Shown: piece by piece, positions 5,292 through 8,533 of the stretch
How positions within the stretch are numbered: position 1 is the first letter of the stretch
Layout of the letters: each line of letters opens with the position of its first letter
NCBI RefSeq assembly: GCF_037860835.1
Contig: NZ_JBBEOG010000011.1
Span: forward strand, 1 to 64,000
Reading direction: 5' to 3'
DNA: 64,000 bases
Source of the DNA: Aquipuribacter nitratireducens
GTDB taxonomy: Bacteria > Actinomycetota > Actinomycetes > Actinomycetales > JBBAYJ01
Notes under the pieces: generated by a model
Told to the model about the DNA's origin: nothing
Database searches by the model: none
Seen by the model: only the letters and a program-made list of their open reading frames with translations
Translations under genes and position numbers: made by a program

Positions 5292-5769
5292 CCCCGCCGC
5301 CGGCTCGGCCGCGGAGCGCCCGCAGGTAGCGGTCGGTCTGCCGGCGCTGCAGGAGCAGGGTCACCGGACCACCGGCGCGGGCGAGGGCGCTCGCCGGGCG
5401 TGACTCGGCGTGCACGACCGCGCGGACGGTGCCGTCCGGGCCGAGGCTCACCCGGAAGTGCTCGACGCCGTCCTCGGGGTGCCCGGGCAGCGTCTCGTAC
5501 GTGAAGCCGCGCTCCGTCGCCTCCGCGCACACCCCCACGACCCGGCAGGGTGCGACGACCCGCAGCGGCCCCAGCCGCAGGGTGAGGCGCACCGTGACGC
5601 CCGGCGCCGCCCGGGGCGCCGACGCGTCGACCGCCAGTCCGCTGTCGCGGTGGACCTGCCACGTCATGAGCCGCTGCGCGGCCCGCTCGAACGCGTCCGT
5701 GCCGTGCCCGACGAGGATGCCGCGCGTCAGCGTGCGGCGGGTCCGGTGCCGGGCCGTCGACGACGTCAC
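5275..5769 (-). CDS. DUF1990 family protein
   Basis: 164-residue protein of the DUF1990 family (also seen fused or next to UPF0548 genes). Typical blocks are the early GHGTDAFERAAQRLMTWQVH and a central ERGFTYETLPGHPEDGVEHF region. No catalytic motif is known for the family. The start chosen is the GTG at 5769, which places the domain start about 15 residues in; the Shine-Dalgarno is weak. It converges on the GH13 gene and the two stops overlap. Function unknown. Confidence 0.75.
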   Translation of the reverse strand: MTSSTARHRTRRTLTRGILVGHGTDAFERAAQRLMTWQVHRDSGLAVDASAPRAAPGVTVRLTLRLGPLRVVAPCRVVGVCAEATERGFTYETLPGHPEDGVEHFRVSLGPDGTVRAVVHAESRPASALARAGGPVTLLLQRRQTDRYLRALRGRAGGGVSPPG

Positions 5770-5826
5770 GGCACCAGCGTGAGGCAGCGGACGGGAAGCC
5801 GCGCGCGTACGCGGGCGGTGTCCCGC

Positions 5827-5832
5827 TATCGT
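5827..5832 (+). promoter_or_regulatory. -10 box for the leuS leader transcript
   Basis: TATCGT ends exactly 6 nt before the leader-peptide GTG, the spacing seen for leaderless starts elsewhere in this window. No convincing -35. Confidence 0.5.
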
Positions 5833-5838
5833 GGCGTC

Positions 5839-5877
5839 GTGCACCACCGCAGCCTCGTGCTTACCGGGCCGCGCTGA
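5839..5877 (+). CDS. Putative leuS leader peptide
   Basis: A 12-codon reading frame starting GTG and ending TGA, encoding [12 protein letters not shown]. Leu codons are CTC and CTT either side of a Val; CTT is rare in this GC-rich sequence. It is followed within 35 nt by a long stem and then a terminator hairpin, the arrangement of a transcription attenuator controlled by charged tRNA-Leu. The same design precedes leuA at 42743. Leader peptides for leucine genes are known in actinobacteria; this particular one is inferred. Confidence 0.5.
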
Positions 5878-5907
5878 GCAGACCGCCGGACGGCGGACCA
5901 GCGCGGC
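5868..5907 (+). promoter_or_regulatory. Leader stem (pause or anti-antiterminator) of leuS attenuator
   Basis: GCCGCGCT at 5868-5875 pairs perfectly with AGCGCGGC at 5900-5907 and encloses a small hairpin CCGCCG/CGGCGG (5883-5896). The 5' arm lies over the last codons and stop of the leader peptide, so a ribosome held at the Leu codons would open it. The competing antiterminator partner is not resolved by eye. Confidence 0.45.
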
Positions 5908-5908
5908 G

Positions 5909-5933
5909 GCCCCTCCACGTGCGAGGGGCTTTT
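5909..5933 (+). terminator. Attenuator terminator before leuS
   Basis: GCCCCTC (5909-5915) pairs with GAGGGGC (5923-5929) over a 7-nt loop and is followed by TTTT. It lies between the leader peptide and leuS, 66 nt before the chosen start, so it would end transcription before the gene. Confidence 0.65.
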
Positions 5934-5998
5934 CCATGCCCGGCCCGCACCCGCCCCGACCCGGCCCGGTGCGCACGACGCAGAGCAGGAGAACCGAC

Positions 5999-8533
<2,535 letters not shown>

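Follow-up and report, generated by a model that had tools for sequence, protein, structure and literature searches.

How is the leucyl-tRNA synthetase gene leuS controlled in Aquipuribacter nitratireducens? The window analysed here, a stretch of 64,000 nucleotides from the 3.8 Mb genome of this species, contains a leader upstream of leuS that the initial annotation had described as a leucine-responsive attenuator. That description comprised a TATCGT box, a spacing of exactly 6 nt, a GTG leader of 12 codons with CTC and CTT, a stem over the leader end, a 7-bp GC hairpin with TTTT, and then leuS. All of these elements are present in the sequence, except that the leader-end stem measures 9 bp and not 8. 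The LeuS identity is supported by TIGR00396 (940 bits against an NCBIfam cut-off of 548.4). Over a 120-aa LeuS stretch, the best named isolate among the 80 matches listed is Kineococcus indalonis, with 83% identity. The locus is organized as follows.

5827–5832, + strand: candidate −10 box TATCGT (of the form TAnnnT), 6 nt upstream of the leader start.
5839–5877, + strand: leader open reading frame with a GTG start, 12 codons and a stop, presumably leaderless, supported by its sequence, the leaders of sister species and a scan for the whole layout.
5854–5862, + strand: control codons CTC GTG CTT (Leu-Val-Leu).
5868–5876, + strand: 5' arm of the P1 hairpin, GCCGCGCTG, beginning 5 nt past the last Leu codon.
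5883–5896, + strand: inner hairpin CCGCC-GGAC-GGCGG within the P1 loop, conserved in near relatives only.
5899–5907, + strand: 3' arm of the P1 hairpin, CAGCGCGGC, forming a 9-bp stem with GCCGCGCTG and supported by covariation.
5909–5933, + strand: intrinsic terminator of 7 bp, GCCCCTC (5909–5915) with GAGGGGC (5923–5929), followed by TTTT (5930–5933).
5987–5991, + strand: leuS Shine-Dalgarno sequence AGGAG, identified by eye.
5999–8533, + strand: leuS, leucyl-tRNA synthetase (TIGR00396), GTG start.

The leader reads GTG CAC CAC CGC AGC CTC GTG CTT ACC GGG CCG CGC TGA. A Leu-containing leader frame is thus found directly upstream of leuS with a terminator downstream of it. P1 and the terminator are separated by 0–1 nt, the gap being 0 if the G5908–U5930 pair is counted.

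The fold energy of the window segment is unexceptional (z −1.29; 25 of 200 shuffles fold as well), and its minimum-energy fold holds both P1 and the terminator. A generic promoter and terminator scan returned nothing within 5300–6300, because the U-tract is limited to TTTT and the scan rule accepted no −35 consensus. Since the fold z-score and the generic scans are unsupportive by themselves, the case rests on comparison. A T-box riboswitch, with its specifier loop and T-box sequence, had been considered and dismissed by the initial annotation, and we concur: Rfam gives no T-box match in the window or, at E values up to 10, in 5700–6100. The latter interval matched only TCV_Pr and CRISPR-DR29 (E 4.8 and 5.1), both unrelated and far below the gathering score. 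Over the whole window only a tRNA reaches the gathering score; the sole tRNA gene found is a tRNA-Ala(GGC) at 2699–2773.

We defined the complete layout as TAnnnT, 5–7 nt, a short Leu-containing frame, a helix 4–6 nt past the last Leu codon, a terminator-like helix within 0–3 nt, and T residues. This layout, which was derived from relatives with the leuS locus of the window among them, matches once on both strands of the 64-kb window, at the leuS site, and in none of 20 shuffles (3-base blocks).

For the comparison, 150 leuS upstream regions were collected, comprising 70 loci from the order and 80 from the genome_contigs collection. The order sample had a LeuS match at E 1e-30 in 238 of 396 genomes, from which the 70 loci were taken. 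Counting the window, 36 of the 150 regions carry the full layout upstream of leuS, or 34 of 147 once duplicates are removed, by a definition made after many of these loci had been viewed; neither the 150 reverse complements nor 150 shuffled sequences gave a single case. The alignment of upstream regions that the initial annotation had proposed as a check speaks for its reading, with leader peptide, CTT and hairpins all conserved. Two sister species of the same genus carry the leaders MRRRRLLTGPR and MPTSDLLLPGPR and share both stems, P1 and terminator, with the window. More broadly, of 246 genomes examined in the class, 107 contain the pattern CTNNTTACCGRGCCGCGCTGA with at most 2 mismatches; the reversed pattern matches in 25 of the 246, and part of the 107 is therefore chance. 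A looser pattern had LeuS beside the match in 11 of 30 loci. In the Streptomyces-like genomes (family f37) the motif is mostly CTGCTTAGCGAGCCGCGCTGA, which codes for LLSEPR, the end of the S. lividans leuL2 peptide MRAVRLLLSEPR; the link of this family to S. lividans is made through the peptide as printed in PMC8079986.

A covariance model, run with filters that lose weak matches, found the module in 28 of 396 genomes from the phylum, each time at a single site. LeuS lies beside the site in 9 of the 15 loci inspected among these 28, including four in family f90 and one in f71, both outside the class. The six others comprise four ilv-like leaders, one leuA leader and a likely chance match (L267). 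Model R1 matches once in the genome of the window (71.4 bits) and once in each of 11 Streptomyces-like genomes (70.5–79.5 bits); these matches are partly by construction, since the model was built on 40 members including the window and some Streptomyces-like sequences. No leuS leader module was seen in the loci examined from families f10 and f19. Loci of family f15 (L023–L027, L029, L034) have one or two Leu codons (e.g. MSSRRLPSRR) and a poorer U-tract (e.g. TCTTCC), with P1 and the GC hairpin conserved; these leaders are possibly a decaying or altered version of the leuS module. A further f15 locus, L022, is the same as the Kineococcus indalonis contig L088.

The anatomy of the module was counted in 62 distinct parsed members. 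The parse demanded TAnnnT at 5–7 nt and at least 3 T, and weak-tailed loci fall outside it; 9 further leaders did not pass. The counts retain five weak leaders of family f6 (L067, L071, L204, L205, L209). One member, L201, was parsed in the wrong leader frame (a 'TTA' artefact) and is included in counts of 62 and absent from counts of 61. Helix limits were set by hand in L026 and L201; for the arm-pair table, 13 members had an outer pair removed. A LeuS match lies directly downstream on the same strand in 57 of the 62, and the other five have a flank of only 267–335 nt, though they were retrieved beside a LeuS match. The spacing from TAnnnT to the start is 6 nt in 48 members, 7 in 13 and 5 in one; because the parse required 5–7 nt, information lies solely in the preference for 6.

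CTT serves as the last Leu codon in 49 of 62 leaders, and the commonest control run, CTG CTC CTT, is found in 18 of 61 members. CTT is rare downstream, accounting for 17 of 1,470 Leu codons in the coding starts of 44 loci (taken as the longest frame near the terminator rather than a checked leuS frame) and for one of 249 Leu codons in four genes of the window. Such a fixed and rare codon may mean that what is sensed is a single leucine tRNA isoacceptor. The distance from the last Leu codon to the start of P1 is 5 nt in 44 of 62 members and 4 nt in 12, and the gap from P1 to the terminator, measured on minimum-energy-fold pairs, is 0 nt in 44, 1 in 13, 2 in 4 and 3 in one. This geometry is kept despite changes of frame: most f6 leaders stop with TAG just before P1, and some f14 leaders are one codon longer. 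The U-tract is poor, with only 3 T in 7, in 4 of 62 members, one sister species among them.

Two features lie beyond the U-tract. In 27 of 62 members a TG[TC]C[CAT]GG motif lies 5–9 nt past the parsed terminator (0–2 of 61–62 in control windows; shuffled mean 0.93, maximum 4), and its version in the window is TGCCCGG at 5937–5943. A second reading frame starting at a conserved ATG or GTG was also considered and rejected, as stops often interrupt it and its frame with leuS is not kept in relatives; its in-frame relation to leuS in the window is taken as accidental.

Both stems are supported by covariation, in alignments that were selected by hand for diversity and omit 19 of 59 (A1) and 25 of 59 (A2) available sequences. 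In an alignment of 34 sequences, 96.4% of P1 and terminator cells are paired, the terminator stem reaching 99.5%, and 10 pairs with 29 cells are changed on both sides. None of 500 shuffles had a double-change count as high, and slid controls are 45–52% paired. An alignment of 40 closer members has P1 94.8% paired with 16 such double-change cells; its count of further pair types is no higher than in shuffles (371 of 500 as high). Conservation and covariation contradict the reading of the locus as a chance combination without function, for which the unexceptional fold energy of the window segment would speak and which we find hardly credible.

The same data bear on whether the intrinsic terminator is the target at all. 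The leader could act on Rho or on translation, with the Leu codons pairing with the leuS Shine-Dalgarno sequence in the way that the leuA LEU element is proposed to pair its Leu run (PMC1262725), and the weak U-tracts of some relatives would fit such a role. The 99.5% pairing of the terminator stem in the 34 sequences argues against it, as does the window run CTCGTGCTT, which breaks the CTCCTT-AAGGAG match, and we consider this explanation very improbable.

Textbook attenuators have an antiterminator that pairs with the terminator 5' arm. The leuS locus resembles the trp type in that its conserved frame and Leu codons point to a translated leader with control codons, and in that an intrinsic terminator precedes the structural gene, although its short U-tract was rejected by the generic scan. 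No antiterminator pairing with the terminator 5' arm was found, whether sought in minimum-energy folds, in truncated transcripts or by extension of the P1 register. The layout of ribosome-mediated attenuation claimed by the initial annotation therefore holds for the leader, Leu codons, upstream stem and terminator, all conserved, and not for a conventional sequestering antiterminator.

We measured this by the occupancy of the terminator 5' arm in transcripts cut before the terminator 3' arm, with a ribosome placed on the first control codon and taken to mask 13 nt, counted from the first base of that codon; the footprint of a stalled ribosome is given as about 12 nt beyond the translated codon (PMC4833913). 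With the stall on the first Leu codon, the median occupancy in the leuS family is 0.10 (below 0.2 in 44 of 61 members, at least 0.5 in one, and 0.14 in the window). It is 0.29 with the stall on the last Leu codon and 0.22 without a ribosome. The E. coli leaders, which have a leader peptide, control codons and an intrinsic terminator in common with leuS, differ in that their antiterminators sequester this arm: with the stall at the first control codon, occupancy is 1.0 for thrL, 0.85 for leuL, 0.83 for trpL and 0.81 for hisL. Later stalls lower these values (thrL 0.61 at the last Thr, hisL 0.7, and leuL 0.08 at a Leu outside the run). Putative trp leaders of Streptomyces-like genomes gave 0.98–1.0 in 7 of 7 folded loci, which were picked by eye, via an antiterminator-forming motif, among 12 pattern loci of which the others were not leaders. 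Streptomyces-like ilv leaders gave 0.03–0.06 in 9 of 9.

Contiguous extension of P1 into the terminator yields an overlap of 0 nt in 61 of 62 members and 1 nt in one. With the terminator arm low in occupancy and no contiguous overlap, P1 and the terminator can coexist as base-paired structures; P1, if it is an antiterminator, must therefore act by position. A conventional, mutually exclusive attenuator would instead need the GGGCC at the leader end to pair into the GGCCCC of the terminator 5' arm, either with a bulge of 2 nt or after a shift of register; for C. glutamicum ilvBNC a similar overlap of 3 nt at the hairpin boundary has been proposed. The window does permit two further G-C pairs over a 2-nt bulge, such an extension of two pairs (bulge of 1–2 nt) is possible in 18 of 62 members including the window, and occupancy reaches at least 0.5 in 8 of 61 members with the stall on the last Leu codon and in 6 of 61 without a ribosome. 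Even the bulged extension is nevertheless missing in 44 of 62, several families have GAG or TA before P1, and the three medians stand well apart from the E. coli thr, leu, trp and his values. We thus regard mutually exclusive pairing as unlikely.

The regulatory reading of the leuS leader is most likely right, judging from sequence comparison: the predicted leader, its Leu codons, P1 at a fixed distance and the terminator are conserved in this order, and both stems covary. We consider it probable that the locus attenuates transcription of leuS, with the translation of a leaderless leader peptide serving to sense charged tRNA-Leu. With Leu-tRNA charged, the ribosome would reach the stop codon and cover the P1 5' arm; P1 would be blocked, and the terminator would halt transcription upstream of leuS. 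With charged Leu-tRNA in short supply, the ribosome would stall in the Leu run, P1 would form first, and transcription would proceed into leuS. How P1 would prevent termination is the less certain step. We infer antitermination by abutment, in which P1 would act by directly adjoining the terminator (0–1 nt) without pairing to its bases, on the premise that of two helices with no linker between them only one can be completed where the RNA leaves the polymerase.

Several observations count against the attenuator reading: the lack of mutually exclusive pairing, the unexceptional fold energy, some poor U-tracts, and the presence of both hairpins in the minimum-energy fold. In the S. coelicolor ilvB leader, moreover, mutations of the control codons are described as being without effect on regulation (PMC1262725). 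Against abutment in particular, contiguous hairpins have been proposed to support termination (PMC8355165). The latter proposal would suit a different role for P1, as a pause or helper hairpin that holds the polymerase for the ribosome or forms a cluster strengthening termination, with read-through arising when a ribosome stalled on CTT masks the P1 base. In 56 of 62 members P1 does start 4–5 nt past the last Leu codon, within the stalled-ribosome footprint (PMC4833913). A ribosome at the stop codon should also mask P1, however, so that the two states would hardly differ, and we give this explanation little credence.

Under the attenuator reading, the leuS leader of the window joins a known kind of element. 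Classical attenuators upstream of leuS were predicted for S. avermitilis and S. coelicolor in 2005, their hairpins being termed antiterminator and terminator (PMC1262725). In S. lividans TK24, leuL2 is reported as a leaderless transcript encoding the 12-aa peptide MRAVRLLLSEPR, followed by a hairpin and a U-run (PMC8079986). The remark of the initial annotation that leader-peptide control of leuS is less often described is thus only partly right. The window shares with these Streptomyces elements the same gene, a leaderless peptide of 12 codons, a Leu run, a PR-stop ending, and a hairpin with a U-run; it differs in reading Leu-Val-Leu and in starting with GTG. The Streptomyces-like genomes align with the window module, which on this evidence appears homologous to the Streptomyces examples. 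What is new is the breadth across the class, the conserved rare CTT codon and the architecture of abutment without overlap. Our literature search, thin on subscription papers, found no paper describing a leuS module across the class or an attenuator with zero overlap.

The C. glutamicum ilvBNC attenuator is close in design. The bases of its antiterminator and terminator adjoin and have a GCC trinucleotide in common, an arrangement called a new 'fast' type; its leader peptide begins one nt behind the transcript start, and its CUU and GUA control codons are conserved (PMC11857589). The leuS family resembles it in the leader peptide, the CUU control codon and the adjacent hairpins. In ilvBNC, unlike the leuS family, the hairpins compete for the shared GCC and a third hairpin, H1, is present; no shared boundary trinucleotide is found in the leuS family, where the contiguous overlap of the adjacent hairpins is 0 nt in 61 of 62 members and 1 nt in one.

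An ilvL-like leader with branched-chain codons and the same layout was found, with a search pattern taken from the ilvL of PMC8079986, in 9 of 9 Streptomyces-like genomes searched and in 9 of 14 in all; ilvB downstream was confirmed for L292. These ilvB leaders resemble leuS in CTT, the 5-nt distance, P1 and the abutting terminator, and differ in their Ile-Leu-Val-Leu control codons and P1 sequence. The ilv leaders of L292–L300 read CTC GTA CTT, a run that contains both codons, CUU and GUA, emphasized for the C. glutamicum ilvBNC attenuator; their P1 abuts the terminator. The putative trp leaders of 7 of these genomes carry a classical sequestering antiterminator.

Related arrangements were also seen outside the class in the same phylum. 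Three f60 loci (L262, L264, L266) read CTC GTA CTT ATT ACC TAG and a fourth (L265) GTA CTT CTT ATT ACC TAG, each with an abutting P1-terminator pair. In L264–L266 the leader stands before a frame of 91–121 aa; the two tested (L264, L265) had no Pfam or NCBIfam match. In L263 (f68), a CTG CTT CTC ACG TAG leader whose P1 abuts a terminator-like hairpin lies upstream of leuA (NF002086, 755.8 bits).

The leuA LEU element and the T-box share with the leuS leader a leucine- or tRNA-linked control of amino acid genes, the LEU element being a pseudoknot with its base stem on the Shine-Dalgarno sequence (PMC1262725), and a model of S. venezuelae trpE attenuation is mentioned as having required RNA triplexes (PMC4833913).

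Predicted leader-peptide control of leuS is thus conserved over much of a bacterial class, beyond Streptomyces. Attenuators of this type are suggested to escape the textbook rule of competition between antiterminator and terminator for shared bases, a rule that the trp leaders of the same Streptomyces-like genomes do obey, which raises the question of whether a hairpin that merely adjoins a terminator can stop termination. Tentatively, the leuS leaders, the Streptomyces-like ilvB leaders and some leuA leaders of Actinomycetota might represent a second design class, in which the antiterminator, fixed 4–5 nt behind a conserved CUU, would never pair with the terminator and would act only by abutment at the RNA exit of the polymerase.
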